From Mesoterricola sediminis (GTDB lineage Bacteria; Acidobacteriota; Holophagae; Holophagales; Holophagaceae): a stretch of DNA of 64,000 nucleotides. The translations under genes and the position numbers were made by a program. The notes under the pieces were generated by a model, which saw only the letters and a program-made list of their open reading frames with translations, was not told the DNA's origin and searched no databases. Location of the stretch: NCBI RefSeq assembly GCF_030295425.1, contig NZ_AP027081.1, positions 2,773,001 through 2,837,000 of the forward strand. Reading direction: 5' to 3'. Numbering within the stretch: the stretch's first letter is position 1; the number at the start of each line of letters is the position of its first letter. Below are positions 10,675 to 34,598 of this stretch, in pieces.

Positions 10675-10685
10675 TGCTTCAGGCC

Positions 10686-15029: not shown

Positions 15030-15046
15030 GGCGTGGATCTCCTGCA

Positions 15047-15736
15047 TCAGGGGGCGACGGTGACGAACATTTCACGGGTGGCGCTGAAGCGAACGTAGGT
15101 GTTCAGCCCCGTGGGAACGCTGGCCTTGCCGATGCCCTGCACCTGGTAGAGCGAGGAGGCCAGGCCCGTCTGCTGTGTGGCCCCCCCTGCGGTGGAGCCC
15201 GTGCCGCCCTGGGCGGCCGAGACCTCGGCCACATCGGACTTCCCCAGGTAGCGCACGGTGACGTCGAAGCTCTGGACGGTGGCGAGCCCCGTCTGGAGGA
15301 AGCCCGTCCCCGACCGGGTGAGGACCATGTCGGACGCCGAGGAGCCCTCGGTGGAACCCACCAGGATCGCCCGGTCCCAGGCCACGCCGGCCGAGTCCAC
15401 CCAGCCGGGGTTGAGCAGGTAGGGACTGGACTGCCAGGCCCCCAGGGTGTTGAGCTGGCGGAAGGCCTCCACCAGCCGCTGGCGGTCCCGGTCCGTCGCG
15501 GCGGCGGCGTTCTCGGGGTTGGTCCAGAGCAGGTACCAGTCCAGGCCGGCCTCGGCGGCCTCGGAGGCCCGCGCGGACTGCCATACGGTCCCCGAGCTGG
15601 CCACCTCCGTCAGGGCGTTGCGGCCCAGGGCGAAGGTGAGGATCGTGACCAGGATCAGCAGGGCGAGGGTGGCCAGGATGGTCACGGCGCCCCGCTCCCG
15701 GTCCCGGGAGGCGGAACGGAAAGGTTCAGGAGCCAT
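15047..15736 (-). CDS. pilX: PilX-like minor pilin
   Basis: 229 aa. The N-terminus RERGAVTILATLALLILVTI is a prepilin-type segment: Gly16, then a long hydrophobic helix. Position +5 is Leu rather than Glu, as in initiator/GspK-like pilins and some PilX proteins. Overlaps pilW by 11 bp and ends 17 bp before pilY1. PilX is known to work with PilV, PilW and PilY1 in priming pilus assembly. The identification rests on N-terminal motif and operon position. Confidence 0.8.
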   Translation of the reverse strand: MAPEPFRSASRDRERGAVTILATLALLILVTILTFALGRNALTEVASSGTVWQSARASEAAEAGLDWYLLWTNPENAAAATDRDRQRLVEAFRQLNTLGAWQSSPYLLNPGWVDSAGVAWDRAILVGSTEGSSASDMVLTRSGTGFLQTGLATVQSFDVTVRYLGKSDVAEVSAAQGGTGSTAGGATQQTGLASSLYQVQGIGKASVPTGLNTYVRFSATREMFVTVAP

Positions 15737-16898: not shown

Positions 16899-17430
16899 AG
16901 CGGCTCATGCTCATGACGCGGTTCACCGCGCCGTCGGTCCAGGTGACGTTCACCACGAACTCCTGGGAGTGCATGGCGGACACGGGGGCGGTGCCCTGGT
17001 AGGCCAGCCGGGCCCAGGACGCGGCGTAGACCGGCACGCGCTTCTGGGGATCGGGGACCAGCTTGGCCAGGTTCGCCACGGCGGCCCCCGTGGACGTCGT
17101 GACCTGCACGCCGTCCACATTGAATCCGCCCACCGGCGCCGGGTCCTTGGAGGTGCCAGGATCCTTGGTGTAGAGCGCCGTGTAGGCCGGGGTCAGCCCG
17201 TTCATCTTGGCGAAGTAGCTGTGCTGGCCCTCGCTCTGGACCTGCTGCAGCACCTGGTCGGCCACGTACGAGGCCGTCACCCGGCCCCTGCCGCCGGTGG
17301 AAGCCGCGGTGGAGGCGGCCTGGAGGGCCGCGAGGCCGAGAAGTCCGATGGAGAGGATGAAGGCCGCCAGCAGGAACTCCACCAGGGTGAAGCCCCCCTG
17401 CCCCGCCGGCGCCGCGCCCCGGGCCCTCAC
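16885..17430 (-). CDS. pilV: PilV-like minor pilin (GTG start)
   Basis: 181 aa. A GTG at 17430 overlaps the stop codon of the upstream fimT-like gene by 4 bp and gives VRARGAAPAGQGG, then FTLVEFLLAAFILSIGLLGL: prepilin cleavage after Gly13, Glu at +5, and the SIGLLGLAALQ helix typical of PilV. A longer in-frame reading up to 18027 is antiparallel overlap with the neighbour and is not needed. Third-domain details are unclear, but length and context fit PilV. Confidence 0.85.
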   Translation of the reverse strand: MRARGAAPAGQGGFTLVEFLLAAFILSIGLLGLAALQAASTAASTGGRGRVTASYVADQVLQQVQSEGQHSYFAKMNGLTPAYTALYTKDPGTSKDPAPVGGFNVDGVQVTTSTGAAVANLAKLVPDPQKRVPVYAASWARLAYQGTAPVSAMHSQEFVVNVTWTDGAVNRVMSMSRYVRY

Positions 17431-18140
17431 AGCCGCATCCAGGTCGCGGTCGGGCTCGACCGGTAGTACCGCAGGATGGAGCCGGTCTGGGTGACCAGCA
17501 GCACCCCCACGGGGCCCTCCGGGTCCGGGGCCCCGCCCCGGGCCGCCACCACGGCGATGTAGCCCTCCGCGTCGAGGGAGCCGTTGGCGTTGATCGTCCA
17601 GGTGCGGGAGGGATCGGCCAGGCTGTTGGTCCACATCCCGGCCGTGAAGACCGTGCCGCCGTCCACCGCCAGCGTGCTGAGCTTCCCCTGCAGGCTGGTG
17701 ATGGCCGTGGACGCGCCCGAGGTCGCGCCGGTCATGTCCACCATGGCGCGCTGGGCCAGGCTGGGCTCCGAGGCCAGGGACCAGCGCCCCTGGCTCGCGC
17801 CGAACGTGAGGGTGACGGAACTGGATACGACGGCGGGCCCGCCCGTGGCCGCGGTCTGGTAGGCGAAGGCCGCCGCCGAACCCGTCCCCGTGGGCGCCAC
17901 CGTCACGGCCTGGCCGCTGCCGCGGGCCAGGGTCCGGGCCTCCACCAGGGCCCCGTAGATGCCGTTGAGCGTGCCCTTCACGGCCGGCGCCGTGCGGTCC
18001 ATGACCGAGAAGGCGTAGACCAGGCAAAGGATGGAGATGATGGCCATCACGACGAGCAGTTCGATGAGGGCAAGGCCCCGTTCCCCGCGGTGTCGCCCGG
18101 CCCTGGCGTGTGGCCCCTCGGCTGGAAAGGTCTGGATCAT
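17427..18140 (-). CDS. fimT: FimT/GspH-type minor pilin, first gene of the pilus operon
   Basis: 237 aa. The ATG at 18140 has a strong ribosome site (GGAGGAAAT, 7 bp upstream). The N-terminus ERGLALIELLVVMAIISIL is a prepilin site (Gly22, Glu at +5). The body resembles FimT/FimU/GspH pseudopilins (GIYGALVEARTLARGSGQAV). In-frame codons further upstream to 18299 lack a ribosome site. It begins the operon fimT-pilV-pilW-pilX-pilY1. It could also be called fimU; the two are not separable by eye. Confidence 0.82.
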   Translation of the reverse strand: MIQTFPAEGPHARAGRHRGERGLALIELLVVMAIISILCLVYAFSVMDRTAPAVKGTLNGIYGALVEARTLARGSGQAVTVAPTGTGSAAAFAYQTAATGGPAVVSSSVTLTFGASQGRWSLASEPSLAQRAMVDMTGATSGASTAITSLQGKLSTLAVDGGTVFTAGMWTNSLADPSRTWTINANGSLDAEGYIAVVAARGGAPDPEGPVGVLLVTQTGSILRYYRSSPTATWMRL

Positions 18141-18337
18141 AGACGGATTTCCTCCGATCACCCGCACCCTCCGCGAACGGGCCTGGAGCCTCCCCGCAAA
18201 AGAATGCTTGAACATGAAAATTGTCGGGAATTCACCATTCAAAACCACGAAAGCTTCACCCCCCGGCGAAGAGCGCCCGATTCGCGCAGCGAAGGGCACA
18301 TTCCGGGACCTGAAGTGAACATTTCAACGGTTGAGCA
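18141..18337 (-). promoter_or_regulatory. Intergenic region in front of the pilus operon
   Basis: A 197-bp gap between the LytTR gene and fimT, AT-richer than its surroundings (about 18200-18260). It probably holds the pilus operon promoter and LytTR sites. No convincing -35/-10 pair or LytTR direct repeat could be fixed by eye. Confidence 0.35.
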
Positions 18338-19075
18338 TCACTGGAGACCCAGGATGCGGTTCAGCTCGCGGGTGCCCATGCGGGTCGCGATGTACTCCCG
18401 GCCGTCCGCCAGGAGGATCATGCGCTTCCCGTAGCGAAGCACCCGGAGGCCCCGCACGCCCTCGGGACGGGCCACCACCGTGCGATTCAGGCGGATGAGC
18501 CGGACGCCGGGCAGGGCCTCCAGCACCTGGTTCAGGGACCGCCACCGGGTCTGGAACTCCCCGGAGGCCGTGCAGGCCCAGACGGCCGCTCGCTCCAGCT
18601 TGAAGTGGCTGATCTTGGCCACCTCCAGGAGGAGGGTGCCCGTGCCCGCGAGCACCGGGATCCGGGGCGCCGGCTGCGCGAGGCTCGCCGCCTGGGCCAC
18701 CCCCAGCTGCTTGCGCACGCGCTCAAGGGCCTTCTCGATGCGTTCCTGGGAAAAGGGCTTGAGCAGGAAGTCCGTGGCCTCGAAATCGAAGGCGGGCACG
18801 GCGAACTCCGCACCGCTGGTGACCAGCACGATGGGGAGCCGCGTGGAGTATTCGGCGAGGATATCGAGCCCGCTGGCGCCGGGCATCTTCACATCGATGA
18901 AGAGCGCGTCCGGCTGATCATGGCCCTGGAGCCAGTCCACCAGGGTGGCCCCATCCGCGAACTTCCCGACCACCGTACAGCCTGATTTTTCCAGACATCG
19001 TCCCAACCTCAGCAGCGAGAGGGACTCATCATCGGCTATGGCGATCTTCAGACTGCGGGAATCTTGCTGGGTCAT
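18338..19075 (-). CDS. LytTR response regulator, AlgR-like
   Basis: 245 aa from MTQQDSRSLK. Receiver domain with acidic pocket D15/D16, phospho-acceptor D61 (FIDVKMPGASG), Ser/Thr in LVTSG (about 84-88) and K106 (LLKPFS). LytTR DNA-binding domain from about residue 150 to the end (RWRSLNQVLEALPGVRLIRL, YIATRMGTRELNRILGL). The start was chosen at 19075; ATGs at 19090 and 19162 are alternatives. It sits directly upstream of, and co-oriented with, the minor-pilin operon. In Pseudomonas, AlgR of this family drives the fimU-pilVWXY1 operon, so it is a good candidate activator. No partner kinase is seen here. Confidence 0.9.
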   Translation of the reverse strand: MTQQDSRSLKIAIADDESLSLLRLGRCLEKSGCTVVGKFADGATLVDWLQGHDQPDALFIDVKMPGASGLDILAEYSTRLPIVLVTSGAEFAVPAFDFEATDFLLKPFSQERIEKALERVRKQLGVAQAASLAQPAPRIPVLAGTGTLLLEVAKISHFKLERAAVWACTASGEFQTRWRSLNQVLEALPGVRLIRLNRTVVARPEGVRGLRVLRYGKRMILLADGREYIATRMGTRELNRILGLQ

Positions 19076-19231
19076 TCGCTTCTCTTGCATCGAGCATACA
19101 GTGCGCCGGGACGGCCGCTTCATGGGCTTGCAAAGATGCCATTCACCCTTCCAATTGTGCACTTCGCTGTATTACAACGTGCATATCGAGCTCGCCCCCC
19201 CGACACCTCGCTACCACCGTAGGATGGAGGC

Positions 19232-19805: not shown

Positions 19806-19881
19806 TGGCGCGTAGCTCAGGGGTTAGAGCACTACCTTGACACGGTAGGGGTCGGTGGTTCGATTCCACTCGCGCCAACCA
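19806..19881 (+). tRNA. tRNA-Val (GAC), CCA encoded
   Basis: A complete cloverleaf can be drawn: acceptor TGGCGCG pairs with CGCGCCA; D-arm GCTC/GAGC; anticodon stem CTACC/GGTAG with loop TTGACAC (anticodon GAC, Val); T-arm GGTGG/CCACT with loop TTCGATT; discriminator A and encoded CCA. Its 3' 47 bases are repeated at 29046-29092, which marks it as the integration site of the island that follows. Confidence 0.95.
19835..19881 (+). repeat. attL: 47-bp direct repeat in the tRNA-Val 3' end
   Basis: The last 47 bases of tRNA-Val, from the anticodon stem to the encoded CCA, are identical to 29046-29092. Sequence differs immediately outside on both sides. This is the standard signature of tyrosine-integrase insertion at a tRNA 3' end. 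Confidence 0.93.
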
Positions 19882-19950: not shown

Positions 19951-19971
19951 GGCCCACAATAGGCCCAAAAC
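19951..19971. repeat. Inner-border repeat, left copy (candidate integrase arm site)
   Basis: A 21-bp sequence beginning GGCCCACAATAGGCCC is repeated exactly at 28912-28932 in the same orientation. The copies lie 69 bp inside attL and 113 bp inside attR, so they would flank the core in the circular form, as integrase arm-type sites do. The rest of 19920-20321 (about 400 bp before the integrase) holds no gene; apparent reading frames there come from the antisense of the tRNA. Confidence 0.5.
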
Positions 19972-20321
19972 GCCTTCCGCGGACCGGCGCGAATCCACAG
20001 GGAACGCCGTGGATCCACCAAGGTGATTCCCGGTACGCAGGCCAAAAGGCCGACCCAACGCCATAGGTCGGCTTCTCCGAGCCGCCCTCGGCATGCAGGC
20101 CCCCGCCTTGGAGGCCAATACGTATTAACCCGCCAGGGTTGGTCGGAGAGTGGGTCTGCCGGGGGGGCGGATCCCGAAGGATCCGGGTGTCTCGAAAGCC
20201 TCGCCACCACTTGCTTTCGGGCCGGCCCGAAGGGTCACGAAAACTCTCCGGAGATCCAGGAATCGCACTCCCAAGGGTGGATGGAAACGACTGTGGATTG
20301 AGCTATATTGCGGGTCTACAG

Positions 20322-21386
20322 ATGAACACCGTACGAAACAGACTTAGTGCGAGGAAGGTAGCAGAGGCGACAACGCCGGGCTACCACCTGGATGGCGGCT
20401 GCCTCTACCTCAGGATCCACCTGCGGGGCTCGGTCCGCCCGAGGGGCACCAGGGAAAGGCCCACGGACAACGTCACCAAGTGCTGGTGCTTCCGCTACCG
20501 CGACCGCGCCACGGGCCGGAAGGTGGAACACGGCCTCGGAAGCTACCTCGACGTGTCCCTGGCTGATGCCCGGGAGAAGGCTGCCGAGTTGCGAAGGATG
20601 CTGATTGACGGCCACGACCCGCTCCTTCAGCGGCAGCAGAAGCGCACCGAGCAGAAGATCGCCGCCGCCACCGTCCTCACCTTCGATGAGGCCGCTGAGC
20701 GCTGCATCGCCGATATGAAGGCCGGCTGGCGGAACGCCAAGCATGCCCACCAGTGGACCAGCACCCTGGCCACCTACGCCTCCCCCGTCCTCGGCAAGCT
20801 GCCCGTGTCGGCCATCGACCTCCCCCTTATCCGGAAGGTCCTGGACCCCATCTGGACCACCAAGAACGAAACCGCCAGCCGCGTCCTCCAGCGCATCGAA
20901 TCCGTCCTGGCCTGGGCCACCGTCAGCGGCTATCGGTCCGGGGACAATCCCGCCAGGTGGAGGGGGAATCTGGACCATATCCTGCCGAGGCCTGGCAAGG
21001 TCCAGGCCCAGGAGCATCACCCTGCCCTTCCCTACACGGAGATTGGGGATTTCGTCGCCGCCCTCCGCAGGCAGAACGGGGTGGCGGCCCTGGCCCTGGA
21101 ATTCCTGATCCTGACCGCCGCCCGCACCAACGAGGTGATCAAGGCCAGGTGGGAGGAGTTCGACCTCGAGAAGGCCCTGTGGACCGTCCCCGCTGAGCGG
21201 ATGAAGGCCCACAAGGAGCACACCGTGCCCCTGTCACCTCGCGCCCGGGACCGAATCCGTCAACTCGCCCAGGCCAAGCTGGGTCCGTACGTCTTCCTCT
21301 TCCCCGCCGAGGCTAAGCGTCCGCCCAAGGAGGCAGTTCGTACTCCGTCTCCGCGACCCCCAGGCACTCCCGCTCGACCCAATTAA
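20322..21386 (+). pseudogene. P4-type tyrosine integrase, C-terminally truncated
   Basis: 354 codons. The start MNTVRNRLSARKVAEATTPG and the N-terminal arm-binding domain (VSLADAREKAAELRRML, GHDPLLQ) are those of P4-family prophage integrases. The catalytic domain begins normally (FLILTAARTNEVIKARWEEF with the first Arg; MKAHKEHTVPLS) but is cut at about residue 335. The HxxR, second His and Tyr boxes are missing and the last 15 residues (RTPSPRPPGTPARPN) are antisense of the neighbouring gene. Normal members are about 400 aa. The location next to attL, pointing into the island, is right for the integrase that targeted tRNA-Val; it can no longer be active. Confidence 0.85.
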
Positions 21387-21915
21387 GGTTCTCCGCGTAG
21401 CGGGTGAGGTGCTGCGCGCGGGCATCCATGGAGAAGACGTCAGCCGCCGACAGGAACCGTTCCACCAAATAGGCGTGATCCACCAAGTTCCGATCCGTCA
21501 TGGCCTTGATGTCCGCCTTGTCATTGTCGTGGAAGCGTTTCAGCTTGCTGACGACCACATCCGGGATGTCCAGCGCCAGGACCTCGAATGACCGCAGCCT
21601 CGCATTCAGTTCCCTGACCTGGTTCCATTTGGGCGGATGAGGCAGGAATGGGACCCCGGAGCCGACCACGTCAAGGTATACGTGATGCTTCCGATGCAGG
21701 GCCGTGTCCTTCCCCGCCAAGGCGAGCAGATCCTGCGCCACCTTCCCGATGATCGGATCGACGCCGAGGACATCGCTGTCCTTCGTGCCTCGGATGTAGG
21801 CCGTCTGGAGCATAAGGGCGGTCGAACCCAGCACCCGGAAGGGGATCCGGGGCTCGGTCTCAGGCCATTGTTCATCGATGGCCTGGAGAAATCGTTCAAT
21901 GGGCGTCGGGGACAT
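21313..21915 (-). CDS. Nucleotidyltransferase-like protein (DUF6036/MNT type), possible toxin partner
   Basis: 200 aa from MSPTPIERFLQAIDEQWPET. The motif LGSTALMLQTAYIRGTKDSD has the GS...DxD pattern of minimal nucleotidyltransferases, as in AbiEii and DUF6036 proteins. The rest is helical, with no other motif seen. It overlaps the 3' end of the upstream Xre-type gene by 20 bp, so the two form a bicistron like toxin-antitoxin or abortive-infection pairs. Its 3' end overlaps the truncated integrase antiparallel. Function as a TA or defence toxin is inference. Confidence 0.7.
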   Translation of the reverse strand: MSPTPIERFLQAIDEQWPETEPRIPFRVLGSTALMLQTAYIRGTKDSDVLGVDPIIGKVAQDLLALAGKDTALHRKHHVYLDVVGSGVPFLPHPPKWNQVRELNARLRSFEVLALDIPDVVVSKLKRFHDNDKADIKAMTDRNLVDHAYLVERFLSAADVFSMDARAQHLTRYAENLNWVERECLGVAETEYELPPWADA

Positions 21916-22696
21916 GGCTTTCCTGGATGGCCGCGGCGAAATCCGTGACCTGGATCGTGGTGAGAATGTTCCAGGCCTCCGAAATCGCGGAGCGTTTCCG
22001 GAGGACCTCCTGCTTCGTCTTGGGACTCGCAAAGGGCAGCCCCAGGTAGTCCTCGAAGGGGGCCTCCTGGGAACGCCCCCCGCCGAAGACCCGGTCCCTG
22101 TGGCTTCGAAGAACCGTGGCAGCCTTTGTGAGCGCCAGGGCCTGCTTCCGGGAAGGCGCCGCCCCGAGGGCCAGGTCGATGGCTGAGAGGATATTGTCGA
22201 GCAACCACCCGTACCGGTTCTCCAAGTGGTAGTCCTTGAACTGGACGAACAGCTTGGCCAGGTTTATCTGGCCGATATTGCGGATGACGACCGGGGCGAG
22301 AGCCGTCAGGGCCCGAGGATTCTCCCCGGAAACAAGGGCCTCCCGAATGATGGAATCCACCCGGGCCAGGTTTTCGCTGGGAAGGAGGTTGGGATCCTCC
22401 GCCAGGTGGTTCGCACCATGGGCGGCCAAGGCCTTCTGGATGGCTCCCCCGGTGTCTCCAGGGGTGGGGTCGAAATGGCTGGCCGGCACGTTGAAGAACT
22501 TGAGCACATGAATGAACTGCTCCGCGGACAGGGAACTCTGCCCGAGTTCGATCTCAGAAATGGCACTTTGGGAGAGGCCCAGGATCCGGCCCAGCTCCCC
22601 CTGAGACAAACTCCGCCCCTTCCGGAGGTCGCGGAGCTTCTTGCCAATCAGACTCCTTGACGGGGTTGCCGTGGCGGCTGTAAGCACGTTATTCAT
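21896..22696 (-). CDS. Xre-family regulator with long C-terminal domain
   Basis: 266 aa. Residues 17-75 are a Cro/CI helix-turn-helix (LRKGRSLSQGELGRILGLSQ then SAISEIELGQSSLSAEQF); residues 90-266 are an unrecognised helical domain. It has a strong ribosome site (AGGGGG, 8 bp before ATG). It overlaps the nucleotidyltransferase gene by 20 bp. Palindromes just upstream (22736-22760) suggest it represses its own bicistron; the long C-terminal domain may bind the partner protein. Confidence 0.78.
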   Translation of the reverse strand: MNNVLTAATATPSRSLIGKKLRDLRKGRSLSQGELGRILGLSQSAISEIELGQSSLSAEQFIHVLKFFNVPASHFDPTPGDTGGAIQKALAAHGANHLAEDPNLLPSENLARVDSIIREALVSGENPRALTALAPVVIRNIGQINLAKLFVQFKDYHLENRYGWLLDNILSAIDLALGAAPSRKQALALTKAATVLRSHRDRVFGGGRSQEAPFEDYLGLPFASPKTKQEVLRKRSAISEAWNILTTIQVTDFAAAIQESHVPDAH

Positions 22697-22883: not shown

Positions 22884-24260
22884 TCAGCCCGAAACCGGCT
22901 TGGCGATCTCAAGGGGCTGAACCACCCCCAGCCCACCAATCCCGAGCACGGGCGCCAAGGACCGGATGGCCTCCGCCTTGGCGCTGGGCGCCAGGTGGCC
23001 ATAGTGCTTCTGCACCATCCGAATGTCCGAATGGCCCAGCTGCTCGGCCACGAAAGCCAGGGGCACCCCCCGATTAACTAGGCCAGATGCATAGGTGTGC
23101 CGCAGCTCATGGAAGGTCACCTTGTCCACCTGGCCGGCCTCGCAGGCCAACTCCATGGCGTGGACCTCGTCATAGGCCGCCCACCCGTCAAAACCGGACA
23201 AGGCCTCCTTGCGGCCGGACCGTGCCACGGAACCCCGACGGAACATCAGCTCGTCGCCCCGACGGCCAGTCGAGTGCGAAACGAACCAACGCTGCCCTTC
23301 TTCGGTCAAGGCCACATGGCGCGGCTTATAGCCGCCGCCCTTGGCCTTGCCGAACTGGATGAACAAGGTGCCGGCCTGGGCGTTGAAGTCCCGGACCTGT
23401 AACTTGGTGAGTTCGCCGTACCGGGCGCCCGTGAACAGCGCCCCCTGGACCAAGGCCCGGAACTCGGGAGGACAGGCGTTGACCAGCCGCTGCTGCTCCT
23501 CCACGGACAGGAAGCGAACCCGAGCCTGGCTGACGTTTCGGAAGGGCTTCACTTCAGACCAATTCACGCCCCGGCCATGGCCGTGGCGCTGGGCGAAGTT
23601 CAGGGCGGCTTTCAGGTTGGTGAGGATCCGGTTGGCGGTATCCCTGCGGGCGCGGCGCTCATCGTCGGTGGCCGGTTTCTCCTGAAAGATCACCTCCTCC
23701 CCTTCCCGCCGGGCCCGGCCCGTCCGCCGACGGGGCTGCTGCGCCAATTCCTGATGCCACCGCTGCACCCGCCGCGGTGTCAGGGCTGTCACGTCCATGG
23801 CGCCCAGCTCGGGCAGGATGTGGGCTTGGGCGATCTGGTCCATGATCCGGACACCGTGAACGCCCCGCACTCTGGCATCGGCCAGGTAATCCCGCCAGAC
23901 ATCAGCCACGGTGTAGGGGCCTTCATGGGGAACCTCCCCACCGGCAACCAGGACCGCGGCACGGGACCATTCGGTGAATTTCGCCTGGGCAGCCTTGGAG
24001 GCCTGGGTGAAGGTGAGGATCTTGATTCCGTCGGCGTCCATGAAATCGTCGGCGGTTCCCACCCGGGCCTGCTTGTATACCCGTGGAGTGGCTTCCAGGT
24101 CGCACCATCGGGCAATCCATGAACCGCTGCCCCCAGAAGGGGGCCGCTCATAGGATAAGTAAGCGCCTGGCCCCAGCGTATCCATCCAGCGGCGCCCTAA
24201 AGCCAGTTCAAGCCTCTTATTGCGGGTGTCCAAGTCCGTACTTCGCTTGGTCCTCGCCAT
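22884..24260 (-). CDS. Tyrosine integrase, full length
   Basis: 458 aa. N-terminal arm and SAM-like core-binding domains (YTVADVWRDYLADARVRGVH) are followed by the catalytic domain with every active residue: Arg in LFTGARYGELTKLQV, Lys in GKAKGGGYKPRHV, FHELRHTYASGL, and LGHSDIRMVQKHYGHL with the nucleophilic Tyr. It is the only complete integrase of the island and the best candidate for excision. It lies in the middle of the element rather than at an end, which hints that two elements merged. Confidence 0.92.
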   Translation of the reverse strand: MARTKRSTDLDTRNKRLELALGRRWMDTLGPGAYLSYERPPSGGSGSWIARWCDLEATPRVYKQARVGTADDFMDADGIKILTFTQASKAAQAKFTEWSRAAVLVAGGEVPHEGPYTVADVWRDYLADARVRGVHGVRIMDQIAQAHILPELGAMDVTALTPRRVQRWHQELAQQPRRRTGRARREGEEVIFQEKPATDDERRARRDTANRILTNLKAALNFAQRHGHGRGVNWSEVKPFRNVSQARVRFLSVEEQQRLVNACPPEFRALVQGALFTGARYGELTKLQVRDFNAQAGTLFIQFGKAKGGGYKPRHVALTEEGQRWFVSHSTGRRGDELMFRRGSVARSGRKEALSGFDGWAAYDEVHAMELACEAGQVDKVTFHELRHTYASGLVNRGVPLAFVAEQLGHSDIRMVQKHYGHLAPSAKAEAIRSLAPVLGIGGLGVVQPLEIAKPVSG

Positions 24261-24365
24261 TCACCCTCCAGGCCTGATAAGACCCCAAACTTCCTCGCGG
24301 CGACCGTAGCACCACCACATGACGCCGAGAACAAAACAACTCATACACCCTGACCAAATTTCAGG

Positions 24366-25667
24366 ATGCGCGCTAAGATAATTGCCATTCCATTGGGTAG
24401 AAAGAAATTCGTGACGAGCTCAGCTGTCCAATTCATCGCCCTCGGCACAAAACTGTGCCTCATCTATAGCCCACGGGATGGCGCCTCATGGATTCATGAG
24501 CGATTTGCAAGGGGCGACGCGCTCGACATAAAGGGCACATTTCACCTTACCAAAGCGGATCTTTTGGAGAAAACAGAACCAAACAATCTGAATGATGTAG
24601 ATTACGACGATTCGGAGATTAGTTTTGTAGTAGCTCAGGCCGAGGGGAAATATTTCGTTTTCAATCCAGCAATCATCCAGATCAAAGTCCCCGTGCTTAT
24701 AGCTAGAGGATCAAATCCAACCTGGAAGTGGTTCACCGCAGAGGAAAAAGTCTCCGTACTGAAGTTACTCGCAGATTTAAAACCCAGTCGTATTGTAATC
24801 GGGGGCGATGCAAGCGACGCAATTCCAATCAATGAATACGAAAAACTAATTGCGCAATTCCCAACTGCCTACGAATTAAAATATTATATCAAGTCACGCT
24901 TATCCATAGTGTTTCGTGAATTTTCTGATGCCAAAATTGATGCAAATGCCCTTCTTCATAATTACGTAGCAAAACGCATTACTTCTGACCCCAAGGACCC
25001 CATCCAGCCATTCCGGAAAGTAGAGGCACTAAAATACGAATACTTACTCAAAAAGCTCAGATCAATGCTCAAAAAGGATGTTGGCTATACCGAGCGCCAC
25101 TGGCAGAAGGAAATTTTAGGAATTTTACAACTATTAAATCCGAAATATGTTGCATGTTTTACATCAGTAATTATCAAGGATACCCTAACCGGAGGCAATC
25201 GTCAGGTCGACATCATGCTGGTCGATGCTAACGGAAATATTGACGTAGTTGAAATCAAGAAACCATTCAAGGCCAAGATCGTAACCGAAGGAACGTATCG
25301 AAATAACCACGTCCCTCACCACGAACTATCAGGAGCGGTTACACAGGTCGAAAAATACCTTTTCCACCTAAACCGATGGGGCAACCAAGGGGAAGACAAA
25401 TTAACAGAACGTTTCAAGGAGCACCTTCCCGTCGGACTCAAAATCCGAATTGTCAATCCTTGCGGCCTAGTCATCATGGGACGCGATAATGACCTTACAA
25501 ATCAGCAGATGGCTGATTTCGAGATCTTCCGCCGCCAGAATAAGAACATTGTAGATGTAGTCACATATGATGACCTTGTGCGCCGCTTGGAGCGAGTGCT
25601 TAACCACTTCAAGGCCAAAGCCGATCTCCAAGACCCAGAGTGGAATGACCCGGTCAAGGAACAATAG
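24366..25667 (+). CDS. sduA: Shedu-like anti-phage nuclease SduA (DUF4263)
   Basis: 433 aa. The C-terminal part (about 235-410) is a DUF4263 PD-(D/E)xK nuclease domain: HWQKEILGIL, D282 in RQVDIMLVD, E297 and K299 in VVEIKKP, then ELSGAVTQVEKY with Q327. The N-terminal 220 residues are the variable sensor part. Shedu is a known single-gene defence system with this domain. Base composition is far more AT-rich than the host and codon use is foreign. It is 100 bp upstream of gajA in the same direction. The family call is from motifs and context; the specific Shedu subtype is unknown. Confidence 0.82.
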   Translation: MRAKIIAIPLGRKKFVTSSAVQFIALGTKLCLIYSPRDGASWIHERFARGDALDIKGTFHLTKADLLEKTEPNNLNDVDYDDSEISFVVAQAEGKYFVFNPAIIQIKVPVLIARGSNPTWKWFTAEEKVSVLKLLADLKPSRIVIGGDASDAIPINEYEKLIAQFPTAYELKYYIKSRLSIVFREFSDAKIDANALLHNYVAKRITSDPKDPIQPFRKVEALKYEYLLKKLRSMLKKDVGYTERHWQKEILGILQLLNPKYVACFTSVIIKDTLTGGNRQVDIMLVDANGNIDVVEIKKPFKAKIVTEGTYRNNHVPHHELSGAVTQVEKYLFHLNRWGNQGEDKLTERFKEHLPVGLKIRIVNPCGLVIMGRDNDLTNQQMADFEIFRRQNKNIVDVVTYDDLVRRLERVLNHFKAKADLQDPEWNDPVKEQ

Positions 25668-25766
25668 GGATGGATTCAGGAGACCAGGAATTAAACATCT
25701 ACCATTTAAAAAATCCTCTAAGGGATATATGGTAAGGGCATCGAGTCCATTCGTTGGATAAAAGCC

Positions 25767-27557
25767 ATGAGAATAGCTACCCTGAAGATTGAGAACTTCC
25801 GCGGCGTAAACACGGGCGTTGTTCAATTCGGAAAACACTCGATTCTCATCGGGGACAACAACACAGGCAAAACAACATTGATCGAAGCCCTCGCCCTTCT
25901 TCTGGGAAGGGACCGACTGGTTCGGGAGCTCACTGAGCATGATTTTTTCGGGTCATGCCCTCAAGCAGCCGATCGAATCAAGATCATCGCCACCCTTACG
26001 GATTTTCCCAATGACGATCCGGAAGAAAGCAGCCAGTGGTTTCGGGAAGGTAGAGCGGTAGTCAAATGGCTTGATGGAGCCTCTGGCACGGTTCATCCCC
26101 GGAGGGAAAACCAAGCATGGAAACTGTGTTGCCAACTCGCAGTGCAAGCCAGGTTTGATCAAGAATCCTTGGCAGTAGAAACACTTCGATATTTCTATGA
26201 CCACGACCAACCTATTGACCCTTTTTCGGAAGACGCCCCGGCAATAATACCCGGCAAGCTTATTCAGGAATTGAGCTTTTACCTTGTGCGAGCAAGTCGC
26301 ACGTGGGACAAAGTTTTCTCCTGGGGCAACGAATTGTTCAAGCGGACTGTGGCAGCAGCCGCTGCGCAACCAGCCGCCTCCCTCCTGGCTGAGCGAGACC
26401 GCCTTCGTTCACCGGAGCAACCAATTGATGCTGACCCAGGCATTGAACCGCTAGTTCAGAGCTTAAACAAGGAACTAGCCATTTCCTTCCCAAATGCGCC
26501 CCAAGTGCAGCTTCGAGTTACTGCGACGGACAGCCGCTCTGTAATGGAAGCCGTAACAGCTCATTTTAAAGGGGAAGACGGGAATAGCATCCCCGCCGCT
26601 AGACAAGGAAGTGGACTTGTTTCAATGCAAGGATTGCTCCTACTCCTTGAATTGGGTCGGGCACGCGCAGCGGGAGGTGGCGAATTCTTAATGGCCCTTG
26701 AAGAGCCAGAAATTCACCTCCCCCCTTCGGCCCAGCAGCACTTGGTGCGGCGCGTGCAAGCGCTTTCAACCCAGACATTCGTGACAACTCACTCGCCACT
26801 CGTTGCAAGCATGGCTGACCCAACTTCCGTATTGATTCTAAGAAAGCACGCCGGTGTTCTATCCACTGAGCCATTCCTCAAGGAACCTCTACCGGAAGTG
26901 GCACCAAACTGGCAGAGAAGACTTTTACAACACAGCCGAATAGATGTTCTCGGTGCGTTAATGCAGCCATCGTTGCTTGTACCTGAAGGGAAGGCAGATT
27001 TCCATCTACTTAGGTGCATCTGGAAACCATTGATGACGACTTCAGGTTGGGTGGAAACCTTAAGTCGCCCCTATGGAATCGAGGTGGGAGTTGTTCCAAC
27101 CGAAGATGCAAAGGTAGTTGAAACCCACCGCCTGATGGCCAGATTACATAGAAATGCGTCCTGCCTTGTCGATGGCGACAGGGAAGGACTGCGTTATGTG
27201 GAACATCTGAAAGACACCCCAGCGCCCCCCGCAGCGATCATCCGTTGGAATGATGGGGCAATGATCGAAGACATTGTTGGATGGGTTCTGAAAGCAGGCG
27301 AGGACGCCGCGATCGCGATGCTTGCTGAGATCCCTCAGGCATCTATCAGGTCCAGCAGTGATGTCGTGGCCTACTTAAAAGGACACAAAATGGACATCGT
27401 GGCATACGAACATGTTGCCGAGGCCATTGCGAATAACGAATCTTGCCGAAAACGCGCTGCCGAGCTATTCAGTGGGCTGGCTTGCGCATGTGCTGGGTCC
27501 CCTACGACGCAGCGCTTTCTCCCTGGCCCTGAAGGCGTGTGGGTCTTCCAGCCGTGA
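25767..27557 (+). CDS. gajA: Gabija endonuclease GajA (OLD-family ATPase with Toprim)
   Basis: 596 aa. ABC-type ATPase: Walker A GDNNTGKTTLIEAL (about 29-42), RQGSGLVSMQGLLLLLELGR before Walker B (FLMALEEPEIHLPPSAQQH) and THSPLVASM. The C-terminal Toprim nuclease domain has E407 (VPEGKADFHLL) and D469-G-D471 (CLVDGDREG). OLD-family nuclease followed by a UvrD-like helicase with overlapping frames is the defining layout of Gabija (class 2 OLD). Length is close to known GajA. In known systems the GajAB complex cuts DNA when nucleotides are depleted. Confidence 0.9.
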   Translation: MRIATLKIENFRGVNTGVVQFGKHSILIGDNNTGKTTLIEALALLLGRDRLVRELTEHDFFGSCPQAADRIKIIATLTDFPNDDPEESSQWFREGRAVVKWLDGASGTVHPRRENQAWKLCCQLAVQARFDQESLAVETLRYFYDHDQPIDPFSEDAPAIIPGKLIQELSFYLVRASRTWDKVFSWGNELFKRTVAAAAAQPAASLLAERDRLRSPEQPIDADPGIEPLVQSLNKELAISFPNAPQVQLRVTATDSRSVMEAVTAHFKGEDGNSIPAARQGSGLVSMQGLLLLLELGRARAAGGGEFLMALEEPEIHLPPSAQQHLVRRVQALSTQTFVTTHSPLVASMADPTSVLILRKHAGVLSTEPFLKEPLPEVAPNWQRRLLQHSRIDVLGALMQPSLLVPEGKADFHLLRCIWKPLMTTSGWVETLSRPYGIEVGVVPTEDAKVVETHRLMARLHRNASCLVDGDREGLRYVEHLKDTPAPPAAIIRWNDGAMIEDIVGWVLKAGEDAAIAMLAEIPQASIRSSSDVVAYLKGHKMDIVAYEHVAEAIANNESCRKRAAELFSGLACACAGSPTTQRFLPGPEGVWVFQP

Positions 27558-28816
27558 CAGTTCATGCGTTCACGGGTGGTGCCGGCTGTGGCAAGACCTA
27601 TCAGCTGATGAAGGCTCTGTCTTGCCATCTGGAGGCCAACCCCCTCAGAGAGGGACAGAAAGTTCTGGCCCTGACGTTTATGCATGGCTCCCGGCGCCGG
27701 CTGGAAGAACGGCTGGCACAGCAGCCTGCCGCCAGGGGACGGACGAATTGCTCCACTATTGACAGCTTCGCATGGCAATTGGTTCGAAGGTGGTCGTCTC
27801 TCGCAGCCGCCCTAGGGTTCACCAGACTTGAGCCGGATCAGTACGAGGGGGTGTGTGACGCCGCAGGCGGCTTGCTACAGGTTGACGAGGTTCGTGGGTG
27901 GGTGGCAGCCACTTATCCCATCCTCCTGGTAGATGAGGCACAGGACCTGACTGCCAACCGCCTTCGTGTTGTCGAAGGTTTGTCAGCGAGGCAGGAGGTT
28001 TTCGCAGCCGCCGACGAGTTCCAATGCCTGAATGAAGAATTACGCCCCAACCCTGCCTGCACATGGTTGGCCCAGGTTTGTTCAGCTCAGGAACTCATTC
28101 AACCCCGACGAACAAGAGTTACAGAACTTCTCGATGCTGCCGCTGCCATTCGCAGAGGAGAGCCGCCCACCTCAGGGACCGCATTCAAAGTCCAATTGAC
28201 TCCCAAATTGCCGCTTGCCGGAACGTGGCTAATTCAAAATTTATGCTGGTTCGGCGGTGGTAAGCGCGTCGCAGTTATTACACCCTCTTTGTGCCCGTTT
28301 TCACTTGGAACCGTGAGTTGGGCCGCAGCGAACAGGACGAAGAGGGGATCAGGTCCATATTCAATCAAATGGGAGGAATCGGAGACGAAAGCCGCCGAAA
28401 GTTATCTCAGCAAAATCGCTCTACAAGATGTGAACGACATACCCACCTTAGTTTCCATACTCGACAATGCGGGTGACTTCCGGGTAGCAAGAGATCTTGC
28501 AGACTGGTTGGACATACAAAAAAGGGCTCGGGGCAAGGTTACCTTTACGAGAAGTGAGATAGAACAAGCGATCAGGCAAGGATTTGCTCAACGGCGGAGG
28601 GCCCACAAAGGTGATGGGGAAGGCTGGAAGGGCATGACTGTCCACGGTGCGAAAAACCGGGAGTTCGACAATGTGATCGTCCTTTGGCCTGCTGCTACAG
28701 GCGGCAGTGATGACCAGAAACGTCGGCTTCTCTACAATGCTGTCACCCGAGCAAAGAACCGATGCCTGGTCCTGATCCAAGCGAAGGCGTGCCTAACCCA
28801 ACCCCCATTTGCATAA
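27554..28816 (+). CDS. gajB: Gabija helicase-like protein GajB (UvrD family)
   Basis: 420 aa, starting at GTG 27554, which overlaps the gajA stop by 4 bp (an in-frame GTG at 27539 is the alternative). SF1 motifs: Walker A TGGAGCGKTYQLM, motif Ia-like LTFMHGSRRR, Walker B ILLVDEAQDL, motif III AAADEFQCLN, motif V MTVHGAKNREFDNVIVL and motif VI LLYNAVTRAKNRCLVL. It is shorter than full UvrD/Rep helicases, as is usual for GajB. It has no promoter of its own and is coupled to gajA. Confidence 0.88.
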   Translation: MTVHAFTGGAGCGKTYQLMKALSCHLEANPLREGQKVLALTFMHGSRRRLEERLAQQPAARGRTNCSTIDSFAWQLVRRWSSLAAALGFTRLEPDQYEGVCDAAGGLLQVDEVRGWVAATYPILLVDEAQDLTANRLRVVEGLSARQEVFAAADEFQCLNEELRPNPACTWLAQVCSAQELIQPRRTRVTELLDAAAAIRRGEPPTSGTAFKVQLTPKLPLAGTWLIQNLCWFGGGKRVAVITPSLCPFSLGTVSWAAANRTKRGSGPYSIKWEESETKAAESYLSKIALQDVNDIPTLVSILDNAGDFRVARDLADWLDIQKRARGKVTFTRSEIEQAIRQGFAQRRRAHKGDGEGWKGMTVHGAKNREFDNVIVLWPAATGGSDDQKRRLLYNAVTRAKNRCLVLIQAKACLTQPPFA

Positions 28817-28911: not shown

Positions 28912-28932
28912 GGCCCACAATAGGCCCAAAAC
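28912..28932. repeat. Inner-border repeat, right copy
   Basis: Exact 21-bp copy of 19951-19971, same orientation, 113 bp inside attR. The stretch from the gajB stop (28817) to 29276 is otherwise free of credible genes; it holds this repeat, attR and a terminator hairpin. Confidence 0.5.
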
Positions 28933-29045
28933 TCCTCCCGAACACCCCGACCCCTGCCCGGCACCGGATGAACAGAATCCTATATTTTCCGAGAAAACCC
29001 GAGTTCACCTGGGTTCGCCGAATTGAGAAAAACCCCCTTGTCGCG

Positions 29046-29092
29046 CCTTGACACGGTAGGGGTCGGTGGTTCGATTCCACTCGCGCCAACCA
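29046..29092 (+). repeat. attR: second copy of the tRNA-Val 3' end
   Basis: 47 bases identical to 19835-19881 (anticodon stem to CCA). The 5' half of a tRNA is absent upstream, so this is a displaced 3' fragment and not a second tRNA gene. It marks the right boundary of the island. Confidence 0.93.
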
Positions 29093-29276: not shown

Positions 29277-29534
29277 CTATCCCGTGTCTTCCGGGTTCGG
29301 GGCCGCGAGGAAATCGTCCACCGCCACGACTGGGATGATCACGCGCTTGCCGCAACGCACGGTACGGAGCCGCTTCTCCTCGATGAGCCGCATGATTGTG
29401 TTCCGCCCACCATCCAGAACTTCAGCGGCCTCCTCGATGGTGTAGGCCTTCCGCGGCAAGACCGCCGGGGCGGGCACCTGGAGCAGGATCGGCTGGCGCT
29501 CCCGGAATTCACGGCGCCGGCATTCAATCCCCAT
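29277..29534 (-). CDS. Excisionase/MerR-type DNA-binding protein
   Basis: 85 aa from MGIECRRREFRERQPILLQV. It has a single helix-turn-helix of the excisionase family: PRKAYTIEEAAEVLDGGRNT then IMRLIEEKRLRTVRCGKRVI, VDDFLAAP. Start at 29534 has GGAGG 13 bp upstream; a longer in-frame reading to 29843 has no supporting ribosome site. It lies just outside attR, so it may be left from an earlier element at the same tRNA. Confidence 0.75.
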   Translation of the reverse strand: MGIECRRREFRERQPILLQVPAPAVLPRKAYTIEEAAEVLDGGRNTIMRLIEEKRLRTVRCGKRVIIPVVAVDDFLAAPNPEDTG

Positions 29535-29591
29535 GGCTGCCCCGCCTCCAAGGTCAGACCTTGAACGTACTACCTTTCCGAGGGTGAAACC

Positions 29592-29927: not shown

Positions 29928-31265
29928 TTACTTCTGACGCATGACATCTCCTCCCGTGACAAGCATGGGTCGATCCCATCCGGGATCCCCCGCATCCATC
30001 CCGGCCAGGAAGCTCAGCGCTATCCCCGCTGAACCGTTCAGCCAGCCCGGGTCAGGGTTCCATTCCACCTCGCTGCCTTCCGTTGCGGGAATGTAGGCAA
30101 GAAACCCTCCGGCCTCGGTTCCGGCTCTGCGCATGCCCAGCGCCATGTCATATCCCTCCAAGGCCCTGTCGCGAAACCGGGCCATACCGGTCTCCTGGTA
30201 CAGCCGCGAGAACAGATGCGCATCCCCCGCGGCACCATGGCACAGGGCCGCATCATGGATTCCGGCCCATGGTTCCCGTCGTTCGGCGCAAGCCGACCCC
30301 AAATGAATCGCCACCTGGCGCCACCGTTCCTTTCCGGAACTCTTGGCGACACCCAGCATCACGGCTGCAATCCCGAGATCGCCGTAGCACCATGAAAGCC
30401 GACAGCCGTCCATGGCCAAAGAATTCCCTGGGTTTACCCAGCGGCCGAATACAAAACCGTCAGGATGTGACATCCGGCAGGAGAGCAGCCAGGTCAAAGT
30501 GCGCTCGAGCAACGGCAATGCCGGCGCGTGCCCCTGGCCGTAGGCACTAGCCAGGAACCCGAGGATTCCCGGGATTCCGTGGGCGACCCCCAGGTCGATT
30601 CGGCCGTCCGGCTCTTGCGGGCGCGATCCGGTCCAGCCGTCGATAGGGGCCTCATGCCCCGCCCCCCCATGAAGCACCCGGTGCTCGGACGCCAAGAGCC
30701 GTTCAAGCACCAGGCGGACCACCTTTTGGGAGCCAGCTCCGCCGGGCCGGTCCAAGGCATAAAGGCCGATTCCCGCCAATCCGTCGATGAGTTCACACGG
30801 CACCCGCCATGCATTCTTCTCCAGGAGCTGCACCAAGGCCGAATCAACAGCTTCGTTCAGATCCTCCGGCTCATCCAGAATCCCCATTTTCTGCAGGTGA
30901 TCCACTGTCCAGGCGACTCCGCTGTAGCCGGCGTAAAGGCCGGGGCGCTCCCGCAGCTCGGGAAGCAGCGCCACACTGGTTTCGAGATGCGCCAAGGCTC
31001 TGGATTTCCAGGCAGGGCCCTGCTTCCCATGGTTGCCCCTTGCCGCGTAGGCGAAGGCCAACGCAAACCCGGCATGCCCGCCGGCAAGGGTGGCTCCCCA
31101 CCCCGATTCCTGCGGTGCCGGCAAGCTGTCCAGGATCTCATCGACGGCCGCTCTCGCCTGCTTCAGGCGTGGACCTGCCAGAAGGGGGCGCCAGGATCCA
31201 TCCATGCCCGAAGGTGCCGGGCCAGGGGCCAAGGTTCCGCCAGTTGGCCAGCTCCACCCCCCCAT
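29928..31265 (-). CDS. lanC: Lanthionine synthetase C-like cyclase (LanC)
   Basis: 445 aa. Double alpha-barrel cyclase that joins Cys thiols to dehydrated Ser/Thr. Repeated barrel motifs GGHAGFALAF, GLYAGYSGVAWT, ELIDGLAGIGLYAL, DLGVAHGIPGILGFL (His229) and GSAGIALSFL are visible, and all zinc ligands are present: Cys293 (WCYGD) and Cys342-His343 (CHGAAG). Start at 31265 or 31205; neither has a strong ribosome site. It is divergent from lanB with a gap of about 110 bp, which should hold the promoters. As a stand-alone LanC beside lanB this is class I lanthipeptide machinery. Confidence 0.92.
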   Translation of the reverse strand: MGGWSWPTGGTLAPGPAPSGMDGSWRPLLAGPRLKQARAAVDEILDSLPAPQESGWGATLAGGHAGFALAFAYAARGNHGKQGPAWKSRALAHLETSVALLPELRERPGLYAGYSGVAWTVDHLQKMGILDEPEDLNEAVDSALVQLLEKNAWRVPCELIDGLAGIGLYALDRPGGAGSQKVVRLVLERLLASEHRVLHGGAGHEAPIDGWTGSRPQEPDGRIDLGVAHGIPGILGFLASAYGQGHAPALPLLERTLTWLLSCRMSHPDGFVFGRWVNPGNSLAMDGCRLSWCYGDLGIAAVMLGVAKSSGKERWRQVAIHLGSACAERREPWAGIHDAALCHGAAGDAHLFSRLYQETGMARFRDRALEGYDMALGMRRAGTEAGGFLAYIPATEGSEVEWNPDPGWLNGSAGIALSFLAGMDAGDPGWDRPMLVTGGDVMRQK

Positions 31266-31376
31266 TCACGGGCAAAACGGCACTGCAACCTTTGGCCTTC
31301 AGCGATCACCCATTCTCCAAGGGGGCCGCCTGAGTCCCTGGATGGGATTCTTCAACCCCATGCGCGTTCGAATGAG

Positions 31377-34300
31377 ATGGAAGATAAAAAACCCGCATTC
31401 CACCTGGACGACTTCTTCGCCTTCCGGATTCCCTTGCTCCCCTACCGGGACTGGGAAACGTGGAGTGAGGGCCTGCGCGCCGCTCCGGCCCAGGCTGGCC
31501 CGGATGGATTCCGTCAGGCCTATGCCTTCGACATGGAACTTCTGCGCAGTCGCCTCCGCCTCTGGGCGGCACGTCCCGAAGTCAGGGAAGCCCTTTTCGT
31601 GGCATCACCGGACCTGGTGGACAGCCTGCCCCGATGGGCCGAAACCCCAGACAGCGAAGGAGGCCGCCGAACGGAACGGGCCTTGGTCCGTTACTTGGCC
31701 CGGATGTGCAACCGCCCCACCCCTTTCGGCCTGTTCGCCGCCCACGGAACCGGCCACCTGGGTCCCGAGACCCGCCTGAGCATCGCCCCCCGGGTATCCT
31801 GGAATCGCCATTCCCGGCTGGACATGGGCTACGTTGACCAGTTCGTGGCCGTGTTGGAACAGGATCGCGGTCTCCGCGGAGCCCTCTCCTTCCGGCCCAA
31901 CTCCAGTCTTTATACCGCGGGCGGGCAAATCCGCTGGGTTCGCAGTTGGATCGAGGCCGGCGGACGCCGGTTCGAACTGATGGGCGCCAGGATGGACGAC
32001 CCCCTCCGCGCCTTGCTGGAAGCAGCCCGGGACGGAATCGGCCTGACGGGATTGACGGACCTCCTTTGGGATGGTGAGCTGGCCCAAGAGGAGATCCATG
32101 GGTACCTTCATGCCGTGATTGACCGCCAGATCCTGGTGTCAGACCTACAGCCCCCGGCGACGGGGAAGGAGCCTTTGAAAGGATTGGCGGCCCAACTTGA
32201 CCGGACGCCATCTTCCCAGGCCATGGCCACGTCCCTGTCCCATGTAGCCCGCTTGCTGGAGGACTTGGATTCCCGCGGGTTGGGCCAACCCCCGGAGGCC
32301 TACCGGGCCTTGAGGTCCGCCCTGCCACATGCAGACTCGGGGCCTTTCGGCTCAAGGCCTTGGCAGGTGGACCTTTTCCACCCGCCCGACTCCTTCGCCC
32401 TGGGGCACAGCCTGCAGGCGGAGATCATGGCCGCGGTGACCTGTTTGAGGCGTTTCGGCTTCCGAAGGCCCTTCGATCCCCTCGGCCCCTTCAAGGCGGC
32501 CTTCACCCGGCGCTATGAGGACCATTGGCCGCCCCTGCTGGAGGCGCTGGATCCTGAATCCGGCATCGGTCTCGACGGAACCGGCGGTGACGTGGCGTTG
32601 GGGGTCCCCCTGCTGGAGGGGCTCGAAGGGAAATCCTTGGAAGCCGCGGAGGAGTCCGGGGAATCGGCCTTTACAGCCCTGGAGGCCCACCTGCTGAAAC
32701 GGATCCAGGCCCTGGAAAGTTCCATCCCGCCATGCCTGGATTTGCAGGAAGCGGACATGAAGGCCCTTAACCGTGAACCGGCGGTGCCCCTGCCGGATTC
32801 CTTTTCGCTCATGGTGGAGTTGGCTGGCCGATCCGTCGAGGCCTTGGATTCCGGCGACGGGTGGATCCTGGTCCATGCTGGAGGGGGACCCTCCGCGGCC
32901 AGGATGCTGGGGCGTTTCTGCCACGGGGATCCCGATCTGGCCTCCAAGGTCCGCAGCCATTTGAAACGGGAGGAGGGGCTCCGACCGGGGGCCCTCTTCG
33001 CCGAGATCGCGCACCTGGGGGAAGGCCGGATGGGCAACGTTCTGGCGCGGCCCGTCCTGCGGGACTACGAGATCCCTTGCCTGGGACGTTCGGGAGCGGA
33101 GCCGGACCGGTGGCTTCCCCTGGAGGACCTTCATGTGGGGCTGCGGGGTGAACGCCTGGTCCTATGGTCCCGCAAGCACGACCGGGAGGTGCTGCCGCGC
33201 CTTGCCAGCGCCGCCGCCTACCAGGACCGCGGCAACGAGATCTACCGATTCCTAGGGCTTCTTCAGGACCAGGGCGTCCAGAACTTCCTGGGCTTCTCCT
33301 GGGGACGGCTCGAAACCGAGCCCTGCCTGCCCCGGCTCACCTGCGGGCGGATGGTGTTTGCCCGCGCCCAATGGCGCCTGGAGACGGCGGATCTTGACCC
33401 CATCCGGCGCGCTTATGACGCCCAGGGCCGGTTCCTAGCATTCCAGGAACTCCGGCAGGGGCGGAGGCTCCCCCGGCGTCTGGTACTGGCGGACAGCGAC
33501 CAGGAACTGCCGGTGGACCTGGACAACCCCCTGAGCGTCGAGGCCTTGTGGTCCCTGCTCCGAGTCCGGAAGGGGGCCGTGCTGCTGGAGGATTTCCCCT
33601 CCGCAGACCTCCTGCCGGCGCGTGGCCCCGATGGCGCCTACCGGCATCAACTCATCCTGACCTTCCTGGGGGAGCACGGACAGGTTCCGCTACCCGAGCC
33701 TCCGCCTCGGCTCGGCCGAAACCCCGTCCTTCATGCCCCAGGTTCCGAGTGGCTGTACGCCAGGCTCTACATGGGCCGGCACACCGCGGACAGACTCCTG
33801 GCCGGCGCCCTGGGTGGATGGATCCGGGATGTGATGCGGTCAGGCATGGCGGACCGCTGGTTCTTCCTTCGCTACTCGGATCCTGAGCCTCACCTGCGCC
33901 TGCGCTTCCACGGTGATCCAGGGATCCTGTGGGGGCACCTCCTTCCCAGCCTCAAGCTCGCTGCGCAACCCTGGCTCGCCGAAGGCTCCGCCTGGGGGTT
34001 CCAGTTGGATGCCTATGTTCCAGAAACCGGCCGCTATGGCGGCACGGACAACCTGGAGCGGGCGGAACGGGTCTTCCAACTGGACAGCGATGCAGTCCTG
34101 GAATGGCTCGGGTCCGGCGCCGGCAGCCCCGGCGCCGACCGCTGGAGGCTTGCCATGGTCAGCGTTGACGGCTACTACGAGGCCGCAGGATTCACCCTGC
34201 AGGAACGGCTGGCCCAGGCCCGGGCGCGCAGGGAGGACTTCCGCGTGGAATTCGGCCTCCACCGCCCGGAACGCCGCCAGCGCCTGGGTGCGGCGTTCCG

Positions 34301-34598
34301 GCGGGAGCGGCCGGCGCTGTCCCGGATCCTGGCCGGCCCGGAACTCGAGCCCGGCGGCCCCGCCCTGGCCATCCTGGAAGCCCGGAATTCCCGGTTGAGG
34401 GTGGAACTTGAGGCCATGCGGGCCCTGGAGGCTTCAGGCGGCCTGGAGGGCTCCTTCGAGGCCGTACTGGCCAGCCTCCTGCACATGTCCATCAACCGGC
34501 TCCTGGCTTCGGCCCAGCGGCCCCAGGAGGCAGTGATCCATGATTTCCTGGTCCGCTGGTACGAATCCTGGCTGGGCCGGGACCGGAAGGCACCCTAG
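31377..34598 (+). CDS. lanB: Lanthipeptide dehydratase LanB (full length)
   Basis: 1073 aa from MEDKKPAFHLDDFFAFRIPL. The long N-terminal glutamylation domain (about 10-690) contains YLARMCNRPTPFGLFAAHGT, the conserved PTPFGLF motif. The C-terminal SpaB_C/elimination domain (about 745-1065) contains WLYARLYMGRHTADRLL and WFFLRYSDPEPHLRLRFHGD. Such proteins glutamylate Ser/Thr using Glu-tRNA and eliminate to Dha/Dhb. The single chain holds both halves, as in NisB. The stop is 2 bp before the hlyD-like gene. No good ribosome site is seen, but the protein begins where homologues begin. Confidence 0.92.
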   Translation: MEDKKPAFHLDDFFAFRIPLLPYRDWETWSEGLRAAPAQAGPDGFRQAYAFDMELLRSRLRLWAARPEVREALFVASPDLVDSLPRWAETPDSEGGRRTERALVRYLARMCNRPTPFGLFAAHGTGHLGPETRLSIAPRVSWNRHSRLDMGYVDQFVAVLEQDRGLRGALSFRPNSSLYTAGGQIRWVRSWIEAGGRRFELMGARMDDPLRALLEAARDGIGLTGLTDLLWDGELAQEEIHGYLHAVIDRQILVSDLQPPATGKEPLKGLAAQLDRTPSSQAMATSLSHVARLLEDLDSRGLGQPPEAYRALRSALPHADSGPFGSRPWQVDLFHPPDSFALGHSLQAEIMAAVTCLRRFGFRRPFDPLGPFKAAFTRRYEDHWPPLLEALDPESGIGLDGTGGDVALGVPLLEGLEGKSLEAAEESGESAFTALEAHLLKRIQALESSIPPCLDLQEADMKALNREPAVPLPDSFSLMVELAGRSVEALDSGDGWILVHAGGGPSAARMLGRFCHGDPDLASKVRSHLKREEGLRPGALFAEIAHLGEGRMGNVLARPVLRDYEIPCLGRSGAEPDRWLPLEDLHVGLRGERLVLWSRKHDREVLPRLASAAAYQDRGNEIYRFLGLLQDQGVQNFLGFSWGRLETEPCLPRLTCGRMVFARAQWRLETADLDPIRRAYDAQGRFLAFQELRQGRRLPRRLVLADSDQELPVDLDNPLSVEALWSLLRVRKGAVLLEDFPSADLLPARGPDGAYRHQLILTFLGEHGQVPLPEPPPRLGRNPVLHAPGSEWLYARLYMGRHTADRLLAGALGGWIRDVMRSGMADRWFFLRYSDPEPHLRLRFHGDPGILWGHLLPSLKLAAQPWLAEGSAWGFQLDAYVPETGRYGGTDNLERAERVFQLDSDAVLEWLGSGAGSPGADRWRLAMVSVDGYYEAAGFTLQERLAQARARREDFRVEFGLHRPERRQRLGAAFRRERPALSRILAGPELEPGGPALAILEARNSRLRVELEAMRALEASGGLEGSFEAVLASLLHMSINRLLASAQRPQEAVIHDFLVRWYESWLGRDRKAP

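Follow-up and report, generated by a model that had tools for sequence, protein, structure and literature searches.

A probable 9.2-kb integrative element with Shedu and Gabija genes at a tRNA-Val gene of Mesoterricola sediminis

The Shedu gene sduA and the Gabija genes gajA and gajB of Mesoterricola sediminis are very probably carried, in that order, as anti-phage cargo by an integrative element of 9.2 kb whose insertion site is the 3' end of a tRNA-Val(GAC) gene. The features on which this reading is based are listed in Table 1; they lie in a window of 64,000 nucleotides (contig NZ_AP027081.1, positions 2,773,001 to 2,837,000), the whole stretch of DNA that was analysed. An initial annotation had named and ordered the three defence genes. 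Open reading frames were found where it had placed them, with agreement between PADLOC and Pfam; the att sites, the tRNA gene, the integrases and the bounded 9.2-kb element had been overlooked.

Table 1. Features of the element and its boundaries (positions in the window).
Feature	Position	Strand	Evidence or remark
tRNA-Val (GAC), integration target	19806-19881	+	ARAGORN; Rfam tRNA 65.9 bits
attL, last 47 bp of the tRNA gene	19835-19881	.	47/47 identical to 29046-29092
Left arm-type site, GGCCCA-N5-GGCCCAAAAC	19951-19979	.	29-nt repeat; 93% identity with 28912-28940
Int1, truncated tyrosine integrase remnant	20322-21386	+	Pfam match ends at profile position 86/172
DUF6036 nucleotidyltransferase	21313-21915	-	PF19502 E 8e-14; weak AbiEii E 6e-4
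HTH regulator or antitoxin-like protein	21896-22696	-	HTH_3 E 3e-10; upstream of nucleotidyltransferase
Int2, intact tyrosine integrase	22884-24260	-	Phage_integrase E 8e-22; R, HxxR, H, Y motifs
sduA	24366-25667	+	Shedu nuclease close to solved effector 8ps4; PADLOC, phmmer, catalytic residues
gajA	25767-27557	+	OLD-family ATPase with TOPRIM nuclease; PADLOC, residue conservation
gajB	27554-28816	+	Short UvrD-like protein, 420 aa; PADLOC, motifs, overlap
Right arm-type site	28912-28940	.	Partner of 19951-19979
attR, repeat of the last 47 bp of the tRNA-Val gene	29046-29092	.	Repeat; again at G000:C1:2802046

Ends and backbone of the element

As expected of a tRNA-integrated genomic island, a direct repeat of the tRNA 3' end was found at both boundaries, and the intact tyrosine integrase Int2 is encoded between them. 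The two 47-bp copies stand 9,211 bp apart. Inside each end lies an arm-type site, the right one 134 bp from attR, which is the usual spacing, and this architecture recurs in four related elements. In the five elements for which both ends were available, the arm-like sites are placed alike, about 133-159 bp before attR, and the shared end 24-mer consists of two hexamers 11 bp apart. Left and right 24-mers agree at 21-24 of 24 positions within an element, against 15-17 of 24 between elements, indicating that the arm-like sites are element-specific while the tRNA core is common. Int2 is probably the integrase of the element. It would most likely have inserted the element by recombining the 47-bp tRNA end as core site, and would bind the 11-bp-spaced direct repeats inside each end as putative arm sites; the tRNA gene would be rebuilt upon insertion. 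The element may also excise and transfer.

The element has a composite history, as judged from the position of int2 and from the truncation of Int1. In contrast to its relatives, int2 starts 4.65 kb from the right arm, and the defence genes fill this space. Alignment with full-length homologues (L008, L011, L012) showed that Int1 is without the H-R-H-Y end of the catalytic domain, and we regard it as a remnant because this HxxR...H...Y end is missing. The cargo would be a later acquisition, placed between int2 and the right end of an element that already existed. No short repeats of at least 8 bp, as a mark of transposition, were found flanking the cargo. A duplicated right end just upstream of int2 was considered but is not supported: an arm-like sequence there (about 24270-24294) matched at 15 of 24 positions, but 50 of 173 control windows reached at least 14, and several control windows inside the element reach 15-16 of 24 arm matches.

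The HTH and DUF6036 genes of the window (21313-22696) recur as a pair beside Int2-type integrases, at L084:7248-8619 and L049:205-1225. The further pair in this genome is 38-52% identical, and that of the congener G005 85-88%, with a partial nucleotidyltransferase. Possibly the two genes form a toxin-antitoxin or defence pair that has so far escaped recognition.

Related elements at the tRNA-Val site

Relatives of Int2 were detected in 37 of the 77 genomes of the same bacterial family. The integrase gene starts about 130-200 bp from a partial tRNA-Val copy in G005 (twice), G036, G066, G061, G025, G076 and G097. The left flank by the tRNA gene is collinear in the congeners G001, G002 and G004, and partly so in G003; the right flank is not common to any congener examined. 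The tRNA-Val site looks unoccupied in G001 and G004, as no second copy of the tRNA 3' end is present there. G005 carries other element pieces and att fragments at its tRNA gene, together with an HTH protein 85% identical to that of the window. In G036 the related element has another defence gene, PD-T7-3, along with a gene for a Rep_1 replication protein. Between PD-T7-3 and the G036 integrase gene we observed a 1267-aa protein (L048:7188-10991) without Pfam or PADLOC match.

The regions from the tRNA gene to attR in G061, G066 and G025 span 42-88 kb, and the pieces that were read contain phage tail, primase and helicase families, indicating that prophages use the same integrase family and the same tRNA site. 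The possibility that the element of the window is itself a shrunken prophage or the remnant of a phage satellite, which kept an integrase, a repressor-like HTH gene and defence cargo but lost self-mobility, therefore keeps real weight. It agrees with the truncation of Int1 and with the Pfam result that none of the 9.2 kb encodes packaging, replication, structural or transfer functions. On the other hand, no capsid, tail or packaging gene is left that would prove a phage origin, the att sites, arm sites and Int2 are all intact, and the compact Int2 element with Rep_1 in G036 makes a small non-phage ancestor equally possible. On balance we consider a prophage or satellite remnant a possible, if somewhat doubtful, origin.

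Several features were observed around the probable integrative element. A minus-strand gene for an HTH_17 excisionase-like protein (29277-29564) lies just outside attR, and a 45% similar piece was found beside the G005 att fragment (L049:1231-1431); the gene hints at vestiges of another element in tandem. Genes of LanC-like and lantibiotic dehydratase type (29928-34598) come next on the element's right-hand side. To the left, the 8.6 kb from 10650 to 19230, with pilin-like genes and a response regulator, are missing at that place in four congeners and represent a separate insertion or loss.

The defence genes, their origin and their pairing

All three defence genes are intact, with conserved catalytic motifs. 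The distance between sduA and gajA is 99 bp, where 100 bp had been claimed; the 4-bp overlap of gajA and gajB, also claimed, was confirmed as GTGA at 27554-27557. In the ORF listing gajB starts at 27539 or 27554 and ends at 28816.

SduA matched PADLOC PDLC00388 over nearly its full length (E 2e-142) and Pfam SduA_C PF14082 (E 2e-35). A phmmer comparison with the solved Shedu effector 8ps4 (E 5e-67) aligned residues 21-415, a span that takes in the D...ExK nuclease site as well as the N-terminal region, and the N-terminal construct 8ps6 was matched as well (E 1e-11). The protein combines an 8ps4-type N-terminal region with a C-terminal PD-(D/E)XK domain. Conservation of the nuclease motifs had been set as a check on the assignment of both systems, and on the Shedu side the catalytic residues D282, E296 and K298 (E296-x-K298) do not vary among 8 homologues and have aligned counterparts in 8ps4. 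In our reading, 8ps4/8ps5 is the EcSduA (type I) of Loeff et al. 2025; compared with it, translation from the first ATG gives SduA of the window 20 more residues at the N terminus. The closest relatives found, from Variovorax and Aquabacterium, are 59-61% identical, and a viral contig search gave no confirmed viral contigs for SduA relatives. DNA ends are sensed by type I Shedu (PMC12904381, PMC12407980). Like its relatives, SduA would sense linear DNA ends with an N-terminal clamp and nick near them through its PD-(D/E)XK domain.

GajA and GajB matched PADLOC PDLC00086 (E 6e-47) and PDLC00104 (E 1e-23), and AAA_15 and UvrD_C_2 were among the Pfam matches of the Gabija genes. GajA is an OLD ATPase with a TOPRIM domain bearing the glutamate and DxD: its residues E407, D469 and D471, as well as the Walker residues, are invariant in 11 homologues, so that the nuclease motif is kept on this side too. 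E407 and D469-x-D471 correspond to the BcGajA site described in PMC10781630. GajB, which adjoins gajA as a UvrD-like partner, has conserved Walker A GxGKT and DEAQD (DEXQD) motifs. In Gabija GajAB of Bacillus cereus VD045, too, a UvrD-like protein follows an OLD-type ATPase-TOPRIM protein, and the catalytic residues are common to both pairs. The pair of the window is nevertheless very divergent from it: single-sequence searches with GajA and GajB matched no solved GajA or GajB, whereas profile searches reached solved GajA at 7e-12 and GajB at 3e-7.

The divergence is also visible in the length of GajB, 420 aa here against 494 in Bacillus, with about 59 residues of the difference falling before the C-terminal part. 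In profile alignments residues 296-413 corresponded to BcGajB 355-472, and about 60-70 residues were skipped relative to UvrD where subdomain 1B lies. A 4:4 complex of GajA and GajB, held through the 1B (Nacc) subdomain of GajB, is characteristic of Gabija. In BcGajB this subdomain comprises residues 73-155 (PMC10681800) and makes contacts to GajA (PMC10781630). The GajA contact may differ from that of Bacillus in the present GajB clade, since the N-terminal part of GajB is shorter around 1B. Gabija acts on linear DNA unprocessed by RecBCD (PMC12904381, PMC12407980), and GajA and GajB would assemble into a TOPRIM-nuclease complex with linear phage DNA as its substrate. The defence mechanisms considered for both systems are taken from PMC12904381, PMC10781630 and PMC12407980; through them the island may protect its host from phages.

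A closer counterpart is the GajA-GajB pair of Pseudomonas putida plasmid pTTS12, 75% and 64% identical over the full length, with the identical 4-bp overlap and an integrase gene close by. Unlike the pair of the window, it has Lamassu genes and no Shedu as neighbours. Relatives of GajA gave no confirmed viral contigs, GajA no phage records, and GajA was absent from 369 genomes of one class around G443.

The GC contents of sduA, gajA and gajB (0.448, 0.532 and 0.557) are below those of the flanking core genes (0.65-0.71, with GC3 mostly 0.94-0.97), so the defence block is AT-rich for this host, as first described, and the foreign origin of its genes is upheld. The further suggestion of more than one source proved right in one respect only. 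GC at four-fold sites is 0.48 in sduA and gajA and 0.55 in gajB, and synonymous codon use, in a test of limited power on single genes, hardly distinguished Shedu from Gabija (permutation p 0.25 for sduA against gajA, 0.04 for sduA against gajB, 0.89 for gajA against gajB). The GC contrast between the two systems resides mostly at codon positions 1 and 2 and therefore reflects protein composition. A single donor pool, presumably a lower-GC donor, may well have supplied the whole cargo. By contrast, the cargo differs clearly from the integrase backbone: for sduA or gajA against int2 the observed codon-use value was 157-161, against 44-46 expected (0 of 500 permutations).

Co-occurrence gave no support to the proposal that Shedu and Gabija cooperate. 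Among 14 further loci with this type of GajA, on plasmids and in three other genomes of the phylum, none had a relative of this SduA, and none of 7 further SduA loci had this GajA/GajB; flanks of about 4.5-9 kb were compared as far as each record reached, a comparison that would miss Shedu or Gabija types of very distant kinship. The neighbours found elsewhere were BREX (L088, L092), Lamassu (L090), DISARM-like DrmB (L107) and SAVED/CBASS-like genes (L112). The idea that this Gabija type has a set nuclease partner upstream was likewise rejected, as its neighbours vary and none is constant. The pairing looks opportunistic. A single cooperative module, with both systems expressed together in a complementary attack on linear phage ends, would be consistent with the common strand and short spacing of the genes, with a sduA-gajA gap free of terminator-like sites, with the similar codon use of sduA and gajA/gajB, and with published work that assigns both Gabija and type I Shedu to the ends of linear DNA (PMC12904381); given the missing pairing and the other neighbours at these loci, we consider it very unlikely. 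There is scarcely any likelihood for the specific version in which the co-expressed Shedu nicks near phage ends, a Gabija without most of 1B blocks or cuts the same ends, and the pair covers phages escaping either one. Promoters and terminators in the block were at or below chance level. Joint action of the two defences would be possible in principle, because both systems would meet the same substrate, linear DNA ends. Two end-sensing systems acting together would form a naturally linked pair, of which the survey shows no sign. Finally, although defence genes widely cluster without active mobility, an ordinary chromosomal defence island beside a coincidental or relic tRNA repeat is extremely improbable, given the perfect 47-bp repeat and matching inner arm repeats that enclose the genes and the same layout in four related elements.

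Significance and comparison with known islands

The integrative element illustrates the usual way in which defences travel, as swappable cargo. It also reveals one tRNA site common to a defence island and prophages, a situation for which we found no description in this bacterial family. A layout in which a common tRNA core is surrounded by arm-like sites particular to each element, and cargo stands between integrase and att site, offers a simple handle for finding further islands.

Shedu and Gabija are both known types of system, and the island of the window is a tidy but essentially ordinary tRNA-integrated defence island of a class already described, including with Gabija (PMC12595487). Islands I23, I44 and I55 of Pseudomonas fluorescens SBW25 (PMC12595487) similarly have direct repeats from the end of an RNA gene, a tyrosine integrase (intY), defence cargo and no transfer genes, and I23 carries Gabija as the window does. 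The SBW25 islands target tmRNA with 14-bp repeats, against tRNA-Val and 47-bp repeats here. The island of the window further differs from them in its integrase and host, in having no recognised AlpA inside, and in the position of its cargo between the integrase and attR.
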